A stretch of 64,000 nucleotides of DNA from Deltaproteobacteria bacterium (GTDB taxonomy: Bacteria > UBA10199 > DSSB01 > JACPFA01). Location of the stretch: positions 1 to 64,000 of the forward strand of contig JACPFA010000024.1 in the NCBI GenBank assembly GCA_016183235.1, read 5' to 3'. Position numbers and translations under genes: made by a program. Shown here piece by piece: positions 24,895 to 37,118 of this stretch. The notes beneath the pieces are model-generated. The model worked only from the letters and a program-made list of their open reading frames with translations, searched no databases and had not been told where the DNA came from. The first letter of the stretch is position 1. Every line of letters begins with the position of its first letter.

Positions 24895-25455
24895 CTAGCG
24901 TAAAGTGGAAAGATATTGGCGCATCTCAGGGCCATCCCACTCAATGGCTCCTACAATTTTGCGAACCATATTTAAATTTTTGTCGATGATAATCGTTTCA
25001 GGCACTCGGATGATATTAAACTTTTCCTGCGAAATAACCATTTCTTTGTCCCAAACGATATGCACATTGGGGCCCTGTAACACCGCACTATAATCTTTTT
25101 CAAATTGGTTGAGAAATTTTTTTATTTCGTCGGTTGAAGTGTCATTGGAAATAGCCACCAGTTCTAAATCACCCCCAAATTCAAGGGCCAATTTCATTAA
25201 CGAAGGAAACTCTTGCAGACAAGGGCCACACCATGAGGCCCAAAAATTTAATAATATAATTTTGCCTTTTAGTTTTTCGAGTGAAAGCTGGCTATTATCT
25301 AATTGAGTAAAGGTTACGGTAGGGGCCGGGCGGTTCTGCCAATGCCACTTGGGAATTTGGGGTTCATGCGTATCTTCAACAATCACGCCGGTGTGGTAAA
25401 AACCCCAAACGACTACAATAACAAAAACTGAAAAGGTTATAATCCATTTCGCCAT
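24895..25455 (-). CDS. TlpA/ResA-like thiol-disulfide protein
   Basis: A 186-residue protein with one N-terminal membrane anchor (about 5-22) and a periplasmic thioredoxin fold. The active site is WASWCGPC (C76, C79). The later VPETIIID segment carries the cis-proline loop (RVPET). In Ccs systems such a protein keeps apocytochrome CxxCH thiols reduced before haem attachment. It overlaps the 3' end of ccsA by 19 bases, confirming that it belongs to this maturation operon. Confidence 0.88.
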   Translation of the reverse strand: MAKWIITFSVFVIVVVWGFYHTGVIVEDTHEPQIPKWHWQNRPAPTVTFTQLDNSQLSLEKLKGKIILLNFWASWCGPCLQEFPSLMKLALEFGGDLELVAISNDTSTDEIKKFLNQFEKDYSAVLQGPNVHIVWDKEMVISQEKFNIIRVPETIIIDKNLNMVRKIVGAIEWDGPEMRQYLSTLR

Positions 25456-27509
25456 GGTTTAACTCGACGTCGCTTATTTAAAAAATAAAAAACCAAACCG
25501 AAAAGTAACTCGCCGACACAAAAGAGTGCAAGGTTGGTGGCGATGTTTTGGGTAAAACCATAAGAATGCAAGCCAACATTTAAGAGGTTCACCCCAAACC
25601 AAGCGAGGGCAACAATAATATTGATGATCACCATCCCCAACGCAAACCCTAAGGCCTTGATCTGCCCTGAAATACGGCCGTGCAATAACCAAATGAGCCA
25701 AAGCACAATGAGTAAAGCCCCATTTTCTTTAGGGTCCCAGCCCCAAAAGCGGCCCCAGGATTGATCGGCCCAAATACCTCCTAAAATAGTACCAAACAAG
25801 GAAAAGAAAAGGGCGAACAAGGCGATACCCATCATGGCTTGGTAAAGTTCTTCTAAACGGCTTTCTTTGGTAGAAGGCAATAAACGGCGGATCAAATAAA
25901 CATGGCCCACCACGCCACCCACAAAAGAACAACCATAGCCGATCGAAATTGTCACCACGTGGGTGGCTAACCAAAAATTAGTATTGAGCACAGCCACCAA
26001 CATCCCCATGGTGTCGCCATCGCTCGCATAGGCATTGCCCAAGAAATGCAGCGTTGCCCCCACCACCGTTGCGATCAAAATGCCCAGCCCATTTTTACGT
26101 TTTGATTCGAGGATAATGCCAAACACACTCGCAATCAAACCCACAAACACGATCGATTCGTAAAGGTTGCTGACGGGTGGCCTAGCCATAATGATAATGC
26201 GCAACACCACGCCGGCCAGATGAAGCGCGCCACCTAGCAAGAGAACCATAAAAGCCAAGAACCTTGCCTTTTTCTCCCAAGCAATCCAGCTTAGGGTGAG
26301 CAAAAGAAACGCTAGAATATAAAAACTTAAACTTTTGGTAAAAAGATCGAGATGATTGTAACGAACCTCTAAATTTAAAATGGAAGCTGAAAAAACCCCT
26401 TCAGGGAAATTGAGGGTGTATTGCGAAATAGCCGCGGAGGCCTGTTTAATTTTTGTTGCATCTTGTTGTTTAACCGCATAGGCCAAGTCTTTCCAAAACC
26501 CTAAATACTTTGCGCTCTCAGGCGAACCCTGCCCTTGCAAAACCAAAGCCCAGGGAGAAAACCATTCTTCAGCATGGCCTTGCCATTGCGGTGGAAAGAT
26601 ACGAAAAATTTCTGACTGCCCACCCTGCCTTATTTGAAACATTTGAAAAGACAAGTGCGTCACTTCTTTTTCTTCGTCACTCACCGCAGCACCTTTTTTA
26701 GCCTTGATAGCCTCCATCTTTTTTTGCAAAAGTTGATCGACCCGCAGCATTTCCATGTAGTTGTAATCTTTTTCGGCTTCTAAACCCAATTCAGCGGCCA
26801 GCTTGGTCGAATGAATTTTAAATTGCGGAGTGATTAATGAAAATGAATTGCTCAAATCGTAATAATTCAAAACCTTAAAATACAATTGGGCCAATTGGTT
26901 TTGAGCCGGGGTGCGTTCTTCTTCGCTCTTGCGATGAATACTCGTAAGGGTGTCTTGAATTTTCGCCAAGGCATTTTTGACTTCTAAAAAAGAATATTTT
27001 TTGCTTTCCCGCCTGGGCAATTCAAGCGCTGCCAACACCTCAGGGTTTTTGATATCAAAGATTTCTCTTTGATAGGCCGATTCTTGGTCAAACAACACTT
27101 CCCCTAACCAATCGAGCGCCCTTAAATCTTTAAGGGAACTTTTGCCATAGAGCGGCAAGAGATTCACTCGCGCAAAGGTATCTAGGGGTTTAAGCCTGCC
27201 TTCATGCAACACGGGGATATTCCCCAACGGCAAATAAGACAAAGGCTCAGCCCTAGCTTGGGGAGATAAAAAAATTGCTAATATAAATGTCACCCCTAAG
27301 AAAATTTTTCTAAAGCGGGCTGAGGCTTGCAGGGGTTTGTCCCTGTCGCTTCGCTCAGGATAAACTCCGGCTTCCATATCCATGGATATGATGCCATGGA
27401 AGCCGAGACTTTGAGTGCGTCCGGCGGCCGTAACCGCCGGACGACACGGACCCCGGAAAGCCTCAGCCCGCTTCAGAAAAATTTTCTTAGGAGTCACCTT
27501 TATTCTCAT
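25437..27509 (-). CDS. ccsA: cytochrome c maturation protein CcsA (with inserted N-terminal element)
   Basis: A 690-residue CcsA/ResC. A periplasmic N-terminal half (about 85-390) is followed by about eight helices with the haem-handling WWD motif WADQSWGRFWGWDPKENGA (about 580-600) and conserved histidines. CcsA pairs with ResB to export and attach haem to CxxCH sites. The start ATG overlaps the resB stop by 4 bases. Oddity: residues about 7-72 are encoded by a 197-base inverted-repeat element, so the natural signal sequence (RKIFLGVTFILAIFLSPQARA) is pushed inward. Whether this longer N-terminus is tolerated, or translation restarts internally, is open. Confidence 0.88.
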   Translation of the reverse strand: MRIKVTPKKIFLKRAEAFRGPCRPAVTAAGRTQSLGFHGIISMDMEAGVYPERSDRDKPLQASARFRKIFLGVTFILAIFLSPQARAEPLSYLPLGNIPVLHEGRLKPLDTFARVNLLPLYGKSSLKDLRALDWLGEVLFDQESAYQREIFDIKNPEVLAALELPRRESKKYSFLEVKNALAKIQDTLTSIHRKSEEERTPAQNQLAQLYFKVLNYYDLSNSFSLITPQFKIHSTKLAAELGLEAEKDYNYMEMLRVDQLLQKKMEAIKAKKGAAVSDEEKEVTHLSFQMFQIRQGGQSEIFRIFPPQWQGHAEEWFSPWALVLQGQGSPESAKYLGFWKDLAYAVKQQDATKIKQASAAISQYTLNFPEGVFSASILNLEVRYNHLDLFTKSLSFYILAFLLLTLSWIAWEKKARFLAFMVLLLGGALHLAGVVLRIIIMARPPVSNLYESIVFVGLIASVFGIILESKRKNGLGILIATVVGATLHFLGNAYASDGDTMGMLVAVLNTNFWLATHVVTISIGYGCSFVGGVVGHVYLIRRLLPSTKESRLEELYQAMMGIALFALFFSLFGTILGGIWADQSWGRFWGWDPKENGALLIVLWLIWLLHGRISGQIKALGFALGMVIINIIVALAWFGVNLLNVGLHSYGFTQNIATNLALFCVGELLFGLVFYFLNKRRRVKPWRNGL
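27295..27491. repeat. palindromic element inside ccsA
   Basis: Two 33-base arms (27295-27327 and 27459-27491) are inverted copies with one mismatch; each carries AGCCTCAGCCCGCTT followed by AGAAAAATTTTCTTAGG. The 131-base loop holds two smaller dyads (GGCTTCCAT/ATGGAAGCC and TCCGGCGG/CCGCCGGA). The element lies within the first 72 codons of ccsA and keeps the reading frame open. Confidence 0.8.
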
Positions 27510-28651
27510 CGCGATTTTGCCTTAAAAATAAGTTTGGGAACTTGAATGAGCAAATGAACCAATAACCCAATGCACATGATCAAACTCGAAATATAAGGAA
27601 ATAGCCTGCCCACATTTTTCACCACCGCTAAAACCGTGGTTTCTTGCCCATCACCTTCAATAAAAGAAGCTTGAAAGAAGGTATAATTTTTATACCGCAA
27701 GGGCTGATTCATTTGAATCACACTGCGTTGCTGAATGCCTTCATCAATCAGTGTGACAACTGATTTGTAACTTCGCGCTTTATTGGTACCAGGGTAAATT
27801 TGTTTTTCAAAATCGATCAAATGAATGCGAAACGGCAAATAGGTTCTGGCCCTTCTGATTTCTAATTCATAAATTTTACCACCCACCCGCAGGGTTTGGG
27901 CAACCGGCATGAACTCTAGCAAGGCATAGGTCCCATTGGTTAAGGTATCAGCCCCATCGATTTTAAAAAATATCCCAGCACGGTTACGCTCGTCTTCTTT
28001 ATCTAAGGGAAGTGACGCCAGATCAAAATTTTTAGCAAAACCACGGTAAGACAAATCGGCTGGTTGATTGCGACGAATCGGGTCACAATTTTTGCAAAAA
28101 CTTAACACTTGGATTTTAAAAGGCAGTAGATCGGTTTTTAAAACCGAACCGGGTTTCAACCAACCTTGGGTAAAATTAGTTTCTTGGTCACTATCTTCGG
28201 GTGAAGTATCCCTCACCACCAATTCTACGTTATGATAATCTCTCACAAAGTTAGAAGTCGCCCCTTCTTGAATCACCATACTACCTTCGGTACTAAACCC
28301 TGCAGTAAGAAAAGCCCCCACCAGCAACAATAAAACCCCCAGATGGGTAATAATAATTCCCAAGTTTTCTTTCTTCCAAACACTTTTAAAGATTAAAAAG
28401 AAAACTAAATTAATAAAAATAATCCCTAACGTTGTATAACCACCCGGCAAGGGCGCCGGCCCAAACCATAAAATAAAAGAAGAAAAATATTGTTGTTGGG
28501 CTTGAAACAACCCAACATATCTTTGCGCAATAGTCCCTACCACCACCAAGACCATTAGCCAAAAGAGACAATAGAAAACAATTTCGGTTTGAGTTAAAAA
28601 TTCAGCGATGTTTTGAAGAATTTTTTTTAATTTGGAGCGACGAACGGTCAT
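27506..28651 (-). CDS. resB: ResB/Ccs1-like cytochrome c maturation protein
   Basis: A 381-residue ResB family protein. Helices are at about 15-35, 60-75 and 95-112, then a large periplasmic domain (about 118-340) and a last helix (about 345-370). The family segment LLLVGAFLTAGFSTEGSMVI is recognisable, as is QMNQPLRYKNYTFFQASF before the final helix. ResB binds haem with CcsA and presents apocytochrome. It is the second gene of the maturation operon and overlaps ccsA by 4 bases. Confidence 0.85.
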   Translation of the reverse strand: MTVRRSKLKKILQNIAEFLTQTEIVFYCLFWLMVLVVVGTIAQRYVGLFQAQQQYFSSFILWFGPAPLPGGYTTLGIIFINLVFFLIFKSVWKKENLGIIITHLGVLLLLVGAFLTAGFSTEGSMVIQEGATSNFVRDYHNVELVVRDTSPEDSDQETNFTQGWLKPGSVLKTDLLPFKIQVLSFCKNCDPIRRNQPADLSYRGFAKNFDLASLPLDKEDERNRAGIFFKIDGADTLTNGTYALLEFMPVAQTLRVGGKIYELEIRRARTYLPFRIHLIDFEKQIYPGTNKARSYKSVVTLIDEGIQQRSVIQMNQPLRYKNYTFFQASFIEGDGQETTVLAVVKNVGRLFPYISSLIMCIGLLVHLLIQVPKLIFKAKSR

Positions 28652-29401: not shown

Positions 29402-29413
29402 TGATTTGCATCA
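29402..29413. promoter_or_regulatory. FNR/CRP-like dyad, site 1
   Basis: TGATTTGCATCA (TGAT-N4-ATCA, perfect dyad with flanking A/T) lies in the divergent gap, 25 bases before the 13-haem cytochrome start and 120 bases before the maturation operon start. The close spacing to the rightward gene fits repression there or activation leftward. Same pattern as three further sites in this locus. Confidence 0.55.
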
Positions 29414-29438
29414 TTTGTTTTTTTTAGGGATCTGCAAC

Positions 29439-32348
29439 ATGCTTAATAGCGCCATGCTACCCAGAAGAGGGCGTTTGCCCTATTGTCAATTTTTGCCGTT
29501 TTTGTTTTTGTTGATCCTTTTTATAGGCCCTTATGGTTGTGGTAGCGGTTCTAATGAACCCGCGGATTCTGACCCAACCGGAACGGGTGAGACCGAACCC
29601 GAGGGTGGTTCAACCGGCGCCGAAACGGGCACTTCGGGTAAAAAACCCTGGACCTATCACCCTGAAAATTGGGCCGACAAAACCGCTCACCCGACTGCCT
29701 TTGCCTCTGATCCAGAATCTTGCAAAACCTGTCATGGCAATAACTACGACAAAGTCATGCAAGGTAAAAGCTGTTACACTTGCCACAACTTTCCCCATAA
29801 CAATGTGTGGAAAGATATTCATGGCCAACAACTTAAACCCGAAGCCATCCAAGATTGTCAGAAATGTCACGTATCTAGTAATAATGTGGCCCTTGAAGGC
29901 ACACCCCAATCTTGTAACAGTTGTCACGACAAACTGAGTTGCCTTGATTGTCACGATCAAGCTAAAGCCGGGCGTCGCAAGATTGTAGGCCCAGGCGGTG
30001 ATTTTTCTCTTGGCCAACATCATGCCAGTGGAGAGGTCAATCAAGAAACTTGCCTCACTTGTCATTATATGAACGACCACTGGTCAGGGGTGGTAAAACT
30101 TAAAGACCCCGATGCAGGCGTTGGCATGGTTTATAATTTCAACCCTCAAGACCCTGAAAGTGTTGAGGCTTTCTGTGTCAACTGCCATGACCAAGACGGT
30201 GCCACCGCCCACGGTGGATTAACCCCCTTTAACGATGGCAAAACGGTGCCTAACATTAAGGGTGTAGAAGGTAGCCTGTGGGCTGATTCCGCTCACAACC
30301 AAATTAATTATCAAGCCAATAGCAACAAACCCTTGTCGTGTTTAGGCGACGGCATCAAAACCGGGTGTCACAGCAATGGTCACGGCTCTGATATTGAAAA
30401 GATGTTGAGCGTGGCCGGGCCCATCAACAACTTGTGCGATCAATGCCACACTGATGAAAAAGTTTTGAACCAAGCCTTATCTGGAAATGAACTGGCCAAC
30501 AACATCCAACAGGCCTTTAGTTTAGAAGGCGATACGGCAAGCATGCACAATTTAGGGACCCAGTTTACCATCAACGCAGGGGACCCCAACGAGAAAACCT
30601 TTACCCTGCAATGTACCACCTGCCACAACCCACACGTGGTCACGGGGAAATATTGGGATGCCGAAGCCGGCAAATCTCCCATCACACGACCTGATTTAGC
30701 AAGCGATCCAACCGAAAATCCCCGCGCCATGGGCGACACCCTTTGGGGCGTGAGCAATGACCAAAAAATGAGTAGTTACGCAGGGGTAGCGCTCGCTTCA
30801 TCGTTCAATCAAGCGGGGAATTTTCAAGATGCCGCTGGCGGCCCTGGCAATCAGTTGCCCGACTATGTCACTTTTTGCACCGATTGCCACGCGGAGCCAG
30901 GTCCCTCACCTTTTGGGCTAAATGATGGCCCTGGATGGGACGATTCGAAAAAAAGTTGGGATAGCGACCCCCATGGGCGTTACCCAGCCAACTTACCTGC
31001 CTCTAAATGCCCTAACGACCCGGCCTGCGGTGATGCAACGGAGGGTTGGCCCAAAACGCCGTTGGGCAAGGGTTTTATGCAACGGCTGCTTCCACCCTAC
31101 GATCAAGGCAAAAGAATAGCCGGTTTTAATTACGTGCTCTCGTGCACCGATTGTCACGAGGCCCATGGCTCTGTTAATAAAAACTTGATTCGTTCCAACC
31201 TTAATGGCACCTCTACTCCAGATTCAAAATGGAATAACCTTTGCCTGACTTGCCATAAAGTAGACCAGTACATGATCAGCATGTCAGGAATTGGTCAGCA
31301 TTGTGAGAGCTGTCACGGTTACGGCCAAAACCCACCGCAGGCTTATATGCCGGGCTCCATCCATGGAATGGAGAAAAATAAAAATGGGGATATTAACAAC
31401 CCCAATAACACCACGCTGATTTTTAATTCTGAACTCGTCGCCTATTTGCGCTTTGATCGAGTTAATTCAAATAATCCGAATCTCAATCTCTATGCCTTGG
31501 AAGATTCAGGACATTACCATCAAAATGCCCGCGGCTTTGACCTCAATTCACCCACCGATGATAACACCACCCATGTGGATGTGAATTTTGGCCACCTCCA
31601 TGTTTTAAGCCAAATCACTCAGCAATGCGTGGCGCTGGGGGCTTTGGAAGATAAAAATGCCTATGGTTGCAGTGTTAACCTCGATGGTCAAAATGATTAT
31701 TTGGAATTAGGTGTAACTCATAGTGTTTGGCCACCCTCGGTGTTTGGGCCTCATCAATTTTTTGAAATGAAAAACAATGCCTCGGTGATGGCTTGGGTTT
31801 TTCCCAATGTTGCCCCGATTCAAAACTTTACCATCCTCTCCAATGCCAGTGAAGACCCTACTGTTAATTATAGCCTCTACCTAATCCCTGATGGAGAGGC
31901 GATGCGAGTTGTGTTTAAAGTAGCAGTTGGCAACAATACCTGGCGCGGGGCCTGCAGCAATGTCGCCATCCCGGCTAATGGCTGGTCGCACGTAGGTGCT
32001 ACCTTTGATGGCGACGCTGTCCAAAAAATAAAGATCTATATTAATGGGGTGCAAAGTACGGCTGCCGATCCTAATGTCTGTGGCTTGTTGCAACCCAACG
32101 CTCAAGAAACGCAAATCCAGGCTGGCCAAGATGAAGCCACCTGTGTGCCTTTTACCGTTGGGGCAAGCTCCAATGAACAACCCTGCATTCAAGAATGGCC
32201 ACCACCGCCTATGGGTGCCTTTAACTGGAACACCGGCAGTAATTTCTTTAATGGTAGGATCGACGAAGTCAAAGTTTACAATACAACCCAAGAAGATTTT
32301 CAAAGTTTAATGGCTCCGCCCTTGCCACCGCCTTGGTTCCCCAATTGA
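29439..32348 (+). CDS. 13-haem cytochrome c lipoprotein with LamG domain
   Basis: A 969-residue protein from the ATG at 29439, chosen for its AGGGA RBS 8 bases upstream. The signal peptide ends at GPYGCGSGS, probably a lipobox. The region to about residue 640 contains 13 CxxCH motifs (CKTCH, CYTCH, CQKCH, CNSCH, CLDCH, CLTCH, CVNCH, CDQCH, CTTCH, CTDCH twice, CLTCH, CESCH). A CLGDGIKTGCH segment could be a non-standard site. Residues about 665-965 form a LamG/concanavalin-like domain (YLRFD, NLDGQNDYLELG, NASVMAWVFP, GRIDEVKVYN). Expected at the cell surface, where the LamG part may bind glycans or minerals. First gene of the electron-transfer locus. Confidence 0.88.
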   Translation: MLNSAMLPRRGRLPYCQFLPFLFLLILFIGPYGCGSGSNEPADSDPTGTGETEPEGGSTGAETGTSGKKPWTYHPENWADKTAHPTAFASDPESCKTCHGNNYDKVMQGKSCYTCHNFPHNNVWKDIHGQQLKPEAIQDCQKCHVSSNNVALEGTPQSCNSCHDKLSCLDCHDQAKAGRRKIVGPGGDFSLGQHHASGEVNQETCLTCHYMNDHWSGVVKLKDPDAGVGMVYNFNPQDPESVEAFCVNCHDQDGATAHGGLTPFNDGKTVPNIKGVEGSLWADSAHNQINYQANSNKPLSCLGDGIKTGCHSNGHGSDIEKMLSVAGPINNLCDQCHTDEKVLNQALSGNELANNIQQAFSLEGDTASMHNLGTQFTINAGDPNEKTFTLQCTTCHNPHVVTGKYWDAEAGKSPITRPDLASDPTENPRAMGDTLWGVSNDQKMSSYAGVALASSFNQAGNFQDAAGGPGNQLPDYVTFCTDCHAEPGPSPFGLNDGPGWDDSKKSWDSDPHGRYPANLPASKCPNDPACGDATEGWPKTPLGKGFMQRLLPPYDQGKRIAGFNYVLSCTDCHEAHGSVNKNLIRSNLNGTSTPDSKWNNLCLTCHKVDQYMISMSGIGQHCESCHGYGQNPPQAYMPGSIHGMEKNKNGDINNPNNTTLIFNSELVAYLRFDRVNSNNPNLNLYALEDSGHYHQNARGFDLNSPTDDNTTHVDVNFGHLHVLSQITQQCVALGALEDKNAYGCSVNLDGQNDYLELGVTHSVWPPSVFGPHQFFEMKNNASVMAWVFPNVAPIQNFTILSNASEDPTVNYSLYLIPDGEAMRVVFKVAVGNNTWRGACSNVAIPANGWSHVGATFDGDAVQKIKIYINGVQSTAADPNVCGLLQPNAQETQIQAGQDEATCVPFTVGASSNEQPCIQEWPPPPMGAFNWNTGSNFFNGRIDEVKVYNTTQEDFQSLMAPPLPPPWFPN

Positions 32349-32908: not shown

Positions 32909-34165
32909 ATGCCCACCTATTTTTTGTTTTGGAAAGATTTAATCAAACAAGTCATCTTCGGCCCCAAACTTTATTATGCCTGGCTTGGGTTTTTATCGAT
33001 TTTCATTGTCATTGGGATTGCAGGCTATATTCAACAATTTCAGCATGGCCTTATTGTCACCAACATGACCGATCAAGTTTCTTGGGGTGCCTACATCGCC
33101 AATTTTACCTACATCGTAGGTTTGGCCGCAGCCGCCGTCATGCTGGTCATCCCAGCTCATATTTATAAATTTAAATGCATCAAAGAAATCGTGCTGATTG
33201 GTGAGCTCTTGGCCGTTGCCTCCATTATTATGGCCATGTTGTTTGTAATGGTTGATATGGGCCGACCCGATCGCCTTTGGCACCTCATCCCCGGTTTAGG
33301 CCGGATGAACTGGCCCATGTCGATGCTCGCTTGGGACGTCTTGGTGCTCAATGGATATTTGCTTTTGAATTTGCATATTCCCGGCTACGAACTTTACAAA
33401 GACTATAAAGGTGAACCTCCTTCAGAGGCTTATCACAAACCTTTTATTTTCATTTCTATTTTCTGGGCCATTAGTATTCATACCGTCACCGCGTTCTTAT
33501 ACCAAGGCTTAGGGGGTAGACCGCATTGGAACTCCGCGGTGATTGCCCCACGATTTTTGGCCTCTGCCTTTGCCGTAGGTCCCTGTTTTATTCTTTTGAC
33601 CTTACAAGTCGTCGAAAAATTTAGCCGCTTTCACGTGGAAAAAGAGGCTTATCATATTTTAAAAAGAATTATCGCGGTGGCGATGATCATCAATTTGTTC
33701 TTACTCATGTCTGAAGTCTTCAAAGAATTCTACACCGATTCAGGGCATAGCGCTTCGGCCAAATATTTATTTTTGGGGCTGCACGAAAACCACTTACTAG
33801 TTCCTTTCATTTGGACGGCTATTGGTTTGAATATTTTTTCCACCCTAACTTTCGCGATCCAAAAATTAGGGAGGAACCAAATCATCATTAATGTTGCCGC
33901 CGTGGCGGCCATTGTGGGGGTTTGGATCGAAAAGGGAATGGGGTTGATTGTCCCTGCCTTTATTCCTTCTCCCTTGGGCGATGTTGTGGAATACACCCCA
34001 TCTCTGGTCGAAATTCAGGTGTGTGCCGGCATTTGGGCCATTGGGCTTTTCCTGCTGACGATTTTTCTTAAAGCCGCCATCCCCATTCACACCGGCGAAT
34101 TAAGATTGCAACGCGAAGAATCCTACCCCGGAGAATTCTCAGATAAGCCCTGGGAAAGACTCTGA
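32909..34165 (+). CDS. nrfD: NrfD-like quinone-interacting membrane subunit (first copy)
   Basis: A 418-residue polytopic protein with about ten helices, of the NrfD/PsrC family. It matches the second copy at 35901 along its length (both have GYIQQ, HGLIVTN, DQVSWGAYI, VVDMGRPDRLWHL, GLGGRPHWN and IWIEKGMGLIVP or VWIEKGMGLIVP). NrfD proteins take electrons from or give them to quinone and pass them to a periplasmic ferredoxin. It begins right after the terminator with no space for its own strong promoter, so expression probably depends on read-through. Confidence 0.87.
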   Translation: MPTYFLFWKDLIKQVIFGPKLYYAWLGFLSIFIVIGIAGYIQQFQHGLIVTNMTDQVSWGAYIANFTYIVGLAAAAVMLVIPAHIYKFKCIKEIVLIGELLAVASIIMAMLFVMVDMGRPDRLWHLIPGLGRMNWPMSMLAWDVLVLNGYLLLNLHIPGYELYKDYKGEPPSEAYHKPFIFISIFWAISIHTVTAFLYQGLGGRPHWNSAVIAPRFLASAFAVGPCFILLTLQVVEKFSRFHVEKEAYHILKRIIAVAMIINLFLLMSEVFKEFYTDSGHSASAKYLFLGLHENHLLVPFIWTAIGLNIFSTLTFAIQKLGRNQIIINVAAVAAIVGVWIEKGMGLIVPAFIPSPLGDVVEYTPSLVEIQVCAGIWAIGLFLLTIFLKAAIPIHTGELRLQREESYPGEFSDKPWERL

Positions 34166-35900: not shown

Positions 35901-37118
35901 ATGCGTACCTATCTTATTTTTTGGAAAGCCATGCTTCGCCAGTCTGTCGTGGGTTCTAGGGGTTATTATATTTGGCTGCTGATTTTGCTCTTTTTTATTG
36001 CCCTGGGTGTTGTTGGCTATATCCAACAATTGCGGCATGGTCTTATTGTCACAAATTTAAGTGATCAGGTCTCATGGGGCGCCTATATCTCTAACTTTGC
36101 TTTTGTGGTTGGCATAGCCGCCGCTGCGGTCATGTTGGTCATTCCGGCTTATGTTTACAAATTAAAATCGGTTAAAAAAATTGTGTTGGTGGGTGAGCTC
36201 TTGGCGGTGGCAGCTATTATTGTGGCCCTCTTATTTGTCGTTGTTGATATGGGCCGCCCCGATCGCCTCTGGCACCTCCTCCCCATTTGGGGTCGGGTGA
36301 ACTGGCCACAATCGATGTTGGGCTGGGATGTCATCGTGCTCAACGGCTATTTACTTTTAAATTTTCACATCCCCGCCTACGAACTTTACAAAAAATATAC
36401 AGGCCATCCCCCTTCCGATCTTTATTACAAACCGTTTATTGTCATTTCCATTTTCTGGGCGGTGTTTTTACTTTTGGTCGAGGCCTTTTTGTACGTAGGT
36501 TTGGGAGGAAGGCCTCACTGGAACGCAGCGATCCTCGCACCCCGATTTTTTACGGCGGCTTTTTCAGTAGGGCCTGCCTTTATTATTTTAACTTTGCAGC
36601 TGCTTGATAAATACACCCATTTAGATGTGGAACAAGAAGTTTATCTTGTGCTTAAAAGAATCGTCGCCGTGGCCCTACTTTTCCACCTCATTTTGCTCGT
36701 AGCAGAAGTTTTCAAAGAATTTTATACCGATTCAACCCACGGCGAATCAGCTCGTTATCTTTATTTTGGTTTACATGGCTACCATGGGCTTGTTCCCTTC
36801 ATCTGGACTGCCATTGCTTTAAATGTTTTTGCCACCTTAAGTTTTGCCATCCCCAAATTCAGTCGCAACATGGTACTTATTAACATCGCTGCGGTAGCGG
36901 CCTTCATTGGTATTTGGATTGAAAAAGGCATGGGGCTTATTGTGCCTGGTTTTATTCCCACTCCCTTAGGCGACATTGTTGAATACTTCCCTTCATGGAT
37001 TGAACTACAAATTTGTGTTGGCATTTGGGCCACGGGGCTATTACTCTTCACCCTCTTCCTCAAAGCTGCCATCCCCATTGAAACAGGGGCATTGCGATTG
37101 AAAAACTTAAAAAGCTAA
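35901..37118 (+). CDS. nrfD: NrfD-like quinone-interacting membrane subunit (second copy)
   Basis: A 405-residue polytopic NrfD/PsrC family protein, clearly paralogous to the first copy. It has the same order of GYIQQLRHGLIVTN, DQVSWGAYISNF, VVVDMGRPDRLWHLLP and FIPTPLGDIVEYFP. Differences cluster in the loops and in the helix around residue 190, where it has FLLLVEAFL. With one ferredoxin gene between the two copies, the pair may form a heterodimeric membrane part, as ActC/ActF do in alternative complex III, or two alternative modules. It follows the repeat element by 19 bases. Confidence 0.87.
   Translation: MRTYLIFWKAMLRQSVVGSRGYYIWLLILLFFIALGVVGYIQQLRHGLIVTNLSDQVSWGAYISNFAFVVGIAAAAVMLVIPAYVYKLKSVKKIVLVGELLAVAAIIVALLFVVVDMGRPDRLWHLLPIWGRVNWPQSMLGWDVIVLNGYLLLNFHIPAYELYKKYTGHPPSDLYYKPFIVISIFWAVFLLLVEAFLYVGLGGRPHWNAAILAPRFFTAAFSVGPAFIILTLQLLDKYTHLDVEQEVYLVLKRIVAVALLFHLILLVAEVFKEFYTDSTHGESARYLYFGLHGYHGLVPFIWTAIALNVFATLSFAIPKFSRNMVLINIAAVAAFIGIWIEKGMGLIVPGFIPTPLGDIVEYFPSWIELQICVGIWATGLLLFTLFLKAAIPIETGALRLKNLKS

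Follow-up and report, generated by a model that had tools for sequence, protein, structure and literature searches.

The element at the start of ccsA

The window, that is, the whole stretch of 64,000 nucleotides that was analysed, carries on its minus strand the gene ccsA (25437..27509), whose 690 codons encode a cytochrome c assembly protein (open reading frame list and Pfam) with the Cytochrom_C_asm domain at residues 446-648 (Pfam). The gene follows a ResB-family gene (27506..28651, minus strand), the stop codon of which overlaps the ccsA start in an ATGA, and precedes a thioredoxin-like gene. The ccsA frame stays open through a palindromic element (27297..27491, minus strand), delimited as the unit common to the full-length copies, 79-92% identical, that were recovered by genome search. 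On the coding strand, the 5' arm (27450..27503, minus strand) extends with a quasi-palindromic outer part into ccsA codons 3-7 and the 3' arm (27283..27336, minus strand) extends into the codons of the signal sequence; by inverted-repeat comparison, these arms measure 54 nt and are 89% complementary.

The inner arm comprises 34 nt with a single mismatch, the best arms in shuffled or surrounding sequence reaching 11-15 nt, and the folding z-score of the element is -14.6. The 197-base inverted repeat announced in the preliminary description is thus present, far beyond chance. Compared with the limits given there (27295-27491), the palindrome is about 8-12 nt longer on each side, and it extends imperfectly (15/18 nt) into host codons on both sides. 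A covariance model built from 38 copies (R2) matched the window at 27318-27468 (111.6 bits, E 5e-32). As had been stated, the element sits within the first codons of ccsA and keeps the frame: it occupies codons 7-72 of the 690-codon open reading frame, 25437-27509 on the minus strand. The peptides predicted from this frame include AEAFR, TQSLGFHGIISMDMEAGVYPER and SDRDKPLQASAR.

The comparison of N-termini proposed earlier found no long N-terminus in the best relatives of CcsA, those of G023, G018 and a named Oligoflexia MAG (51-53% identity), all of which start with the signal peptide itself. Judging from the sequence, an insert-free CcsA would begin MRIKVTPKK-IFLGVTFILAIFLSPQARA, an ordinary signal peptide. 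Comparison with the rebuilt junction put the extension encoded ahead of the signal sequence at about 60 residues and not the 65 or so first estimated.

A repeat family with a three-way-junction core

About 18 copies, 79-92% identical and mostly with unrelated flanks, occur in the genome that contains the window (G000; 2.61 Mb in 51 contigs); the search for further copies suggested in the preliminary description thus returned about 17. Many intergenic copies of this genome (L002, L003, L005, L006, L008, L009 and L011) share an extra common flank, CATATCTCTTCAAATATTTG...AAGTCTTTTCGAGG, so that the element there is part of a larger composite repeat.

Most of the family escaped a nucleotide search of the relatives in which the ccsA copy was the only query, and covariance models were needed. 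The model R1, prompted by two related copies of G009 with quite different arms and the same core, detected the family in 10/46 genomes of the class; R2 detected it in 15/46, among them G033 only weakly (27 bits, E 2e-4), a doubtful case. Seven copies were found in G223, which belongs to another phylum and is the sole genome compared from its class. A match in G172 (28 bits) looks like chance and was left out of the counts. The covariance model search of the class genomes and G223 gave a family total of about 95 copies. The class searched probably represents all of its phylum among the genomes compared, no genome of the same phylum and another class having appeared. Rfam 15, searched at permissive thresholds with 15 loci, gave no covariance-model match on the element, and the plasmid and phage collections gave no match to it either. 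The initial finding was correct and understated: the family is uncatalogued, phylum-wide and gene-invading.

We observed a common fold in the copies (alignments and consensus folds). In the window, the conserved core GGGGTC ... GACAAACCCC (27332..27454, minus strand) closes a three-way junction; it is of the long form, with 123 nt, as against 99 nt in the short form. Above the GGGGT/ACCCC closing stem stand hairpin 1 (27415..27447, minus strand), with a variable stem and a conserved loop of the TTACGG type, TTACGG itself in ccsA, and hairpin 2 (27369..27404, minus strand), also with a variable stem, which lies under a GTC/GAC step and has a conserved unpaired TC/TCC and a conserved apical ATATCCATnGAT-type loop. 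Where the short form has TCC, the long form, which is that of ccsA, is 24 nt longer, and this difference is divisible by three; comparison of the two forms, and occurrence of the motif elsewhere in this and other genomes, indicated that the extra hairpin (27342..27368, minus strand) is probably a nested second repeat (GGAGTTTATCCTGAGCGAAGCGACAGG). The central 23-24 nt of this nested repeat also match two genomes of other phyla (G182 and G112).

Junction and loops are conserved across copies; the stems are variable yet paired. In the 38-copy alignment, 91.2% of cells pair and 40/42 pairs have changed on both sides; covariation scores 0.76, compared with 0.19 for shuffled alignments and 0.15 for the best of the slid versions. 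This alignment was fitted to the model, and the pairing and covariation figures are therefore biased upwards.

In-frame copies within genes

Most copies are intergenic and lie in both orientations relative to genes. About 15 copies were observed in frame within genes, either just ahead of signal, prepilin or membrane segments, or in linkers. Besides ccsA in G000, they occur in gspI, gspJ, gspK, bamA and the mutL linker of G009, in gspK of G016 (one confirmed and one probable copy), in the genes for a periplasmic-binding-type lipoprotein and an outer-membrane protein of G018, in the mutL linker of G020, in ComEA-like and FecR-like genes of G045, and in the der linker and a carotenoid-biosynthesis-like membrane protein gene of G036. 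Pfam confirmed the host domains for ccsA, mutL, bamA, gspJ and the lipoprotein; gspI, gspK, ComEA, FecR-like, der, the G018 outer-membrane protein and the G036 membrane protein were named by sequence motif, without a Pfam match. The first gspK element of G016 was recognised by eye and by folding only and is not reported by R2. The genic cases were recognised by their open frame, so gene-breaking insertions are under-counted.

In G020, MutL has 347 residues before the element and 200 after it, with the ATPase and C-terminal domains intact, and the mutL linkers of two species of one genus carry different family members. The genic copies use both strands and all three codon phases, which indicates that no single encoded peptide is selected. 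The corresponding sites in relatives often carry other repeats, so that these sites are permissive for insertions in general. In relatives (L221, L223, L225 and L289), repeats of the GGTCCATGGTCC type fill the gspK N-terminus and, in G030, the mutL linker, the same positions being hot spots for unrelated repeats. The der gene with the linker element (G036, L211:1200-2000) is frameshifted upstream, in the first GTPase domain, which reflects either a draft error or a decaying gene; we kept this case in the count despite the frameshift.

Mirrored arms and the spread of the family

The arms of the element show concerted evolution. When the eight copies of G025 were compared pairwise, 217 arm positions differed in both arms and 14 in one only, and L182 and L183, which have identical 91-nt cores, showed three arm differences, all of them mirrored. 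Arm-to-arm mismatches over 91 copies were 34 G-T versus 58 A-C, beside 2741 Watson-Crick pairs (17 versus 27 in the first 57 copies). Helices selected at the RNA level normally pass through G-U pairs and tolerate them. Given the mirrored changes and the lack of a G-U excess, pairing is maintained at the DNA level, most likely via template-switch correction, which can extend gradually into the host DNA alongside. A published route for creating and correcting perfect stems is template switching in replication (PMC8794818; see also there on G-U pairs in helices), and we infer that, in this family, hairpin template switching at replication copies one arm onto the other and can push the palindrome outwards into the host.

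In the outer 30 nt beyond the model, 75/88 copies carried inverted repeats above the 95% level of between-genome controls, and these outer repeats differ from site to site. The gspK palindrome of G009 takes in the TTTAAAA of the gspJ/gspK junction, which is native or nearly so according to G016, G030 and G035. We read the outer arms as the palindrome creeping outwards, although the inverted copy could also have been made in a single step at insertion.

In our view, the insert in ccsA is probably a single copy from a family of non-autonomous, RPE-like palindromic repeats, which spreads through the genomes of the phylum. Such a family would survive between genes, just before signal or membrane segments and in interdomain linkers. 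The insertion point would be near codon 10 of ccsA; because the element's length is divisible by three and it contains no in-frame stop, reading of ccsA would still begin at the original start, coupled through ATGA, and run across the element to the signal sequence, and some 60 residues would be added to the cytoplasmic N-terminus of CcsA. Translation of the mRNA through the ccsA element is inferred, in the absence of expression data, as is the enzyme or replication process that would move the element in trans.

The mobile palindromic element likened to Rickettsia palindromic elements in the preliminary description is supported by copies elsewhere, by insert-free relatives and by the presence of the same family in frame at about 14 other gene positions. 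RPEs and their Wolbachia equivalents are palindromic repeats of 100-200 bp, present in many copies, both intergenic and in frame in unrelated conserved genes that remain open (PMC2229807, PMC10969869, PMC3767692). Our family resembles them in being palindromic, about 100-150 bp long (here a core of 99-123 nt plus arms) and repeated many times over, and in being inserted in frame in unrelated open genes (here ccsA, gspI/J/K, bamA, mutL and others). It differs in several respects: RPEs encode a conserved peptide in one frame (PMC10969869), whereas this family, using all phases and strands, does not; the host is of another group and clusters with no rickettsia here, and no sequence link was shown; the three-way-junction core is unreported for RPEs in the literature cited; and the stems vary between copies yet stay mirrored. 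By this comparison, the family works like RPEs, and the likeness is functional, homology not being shown. Coding palindromes in nematomorph mitochondria also have arms that evolve in concert, for which template switching was proposed (PMC6649704), but theirs arise in native coding sequence, whereas the arms in our family are carried by a mobile core that has conserved loops of its own.

An alternative that remains possible, although we regard it as rather unlikely, is that a transposase with a preference for palindromes already present as targets mobilises a MITE or hairpin element in trans; the outer arms would then be old target hairpins. The outer arms are indeed locus-specific inverted repeats, and the genome of the window contains one intact Y1_Tnp gene. 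This alternative would require native near-perfect palindromes of 15-30 bp in coding starts many times over, and the Y1_Tnp gene has a different flanking palindrome. As the source of all arms, pre-existing target palindromes were rejected on account of G041, in which a variable stem is enclosed by conserved motifs. Known MITEs (Correia/NEMIS, ERIC and RU; PMC2229807) are likewise small, non-autonomous-looking and stem-loop forming, with known in-frame fusions, and terminal inverted repeats are present in our family too; in those MITEs, however, the terminal repeats are conserved and TA-ended target duplications are usual (PMC2229807), whereas the outer arms are locus-specific here and no direct duplication was seen.

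REP/RAYT systems are comparable in their hairpin repeats and in the presence of a Y1_Tnp gene in the genome, but our element is larger and no copy adjoins the Y1_Tnp gene. RAYT was rejected as the mover, the sole intact Y1_Tnp gene of the genome being flanked by another palindrome: this RAYT-like gene (contig C16, L143:1456-1953) has on both sides a different small palindrome ending CTCGCAATGACA, which is likely its REP-type partner. In G020, the repeat type ending CTCGCAATGACA also precedes the BamA signal sequence, in frame.

No mobilising enzyme was found in the genome of the window, where only Y1_Tnp was sought. No target-site duplication was found: the flanks are inverted and not direct repeats, and a palindromic junction hides short direct ones. 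No clean empty site was found at base resolution, the junction sites in relatives often carrying other repeats. We can propose only tentatively, and without expecting it to hold, that the element, when it moves, does so in the form of a folded DNA hairpin or through template switching in replication, copying adjoining host sequence inverted. If this were true, each copy would be the centre of a new site-specific perfect palindrome, and a mobile element would have a new route to spread and to edit coding sequence.

The element could also lie upstream of the true ccsA start, with no fusion protein and a frame open by chance. It would fit that intergenic copies predominate, that several frames of the element are open and that the signal peptide follows shortly after it; but no good start codon exists between element and signal sequence, where the only GTG lacks a spaced Shine-Dalgarno, ATG occurring solely inside the element. 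Since the upstream ATG has the ATGA coupling to resB, and since 347 + 200 MutL residues flank the element in the mutL linker case, we find a downstream start improbable.

No more credible, and if anything less so, is a functional structured RNA family whose copies are transcribed and whose helices are kept by selection on RNA. Conserved loops, asymmetric internal loops kept unpaired, a UNCG-like loop and massive covariation would fit such a family, and the conserved unpaired loops show that a constraint on sequence exists beyond arm correction. Nevertheless, on neither strand does G-U outnumber A-C several-fold, copies whose cores are identical differ by mirrored changes at multiple sites, copies lie in both orientations relative to genes, and there is no Rfam match. 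Functional RNA was rejected as the cause of the covariation because the wobble test argues against it. An assembly artefact, conceivable in a draft of 51 contigs, can be set aside, because long contigs contain many copies whose flanks are unique and because the family recurs in independently assembled genomes.

New here are the family and its host range, the fold that the copies have in common and the way in which the arms evolve, mirrored and poor in wobble pairs. Protein-coding palindromes have so far been described mainly in Rickettsia and Wolbachia, and the phenomenon proves more general now that genomes of another phylum show a second family, seemingly unrelated and in frame in about 15 cases. 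The positions that recur, before signal sequences and in linkers, show where proteins tolerate new sequence. Mirrored arms without wobble excess provide a natural test case for template-switch evolution, with the caution that strong covariation is by itself no proof of a functional RNA.

Elsewhere in the window, two 300-nt stretches (32971-33270 and 35963-36262) are 73% identical; the first lies within an NrfD-type gene that adjoins a large multihaem cytochrome with a LamG domain (29406-32348).
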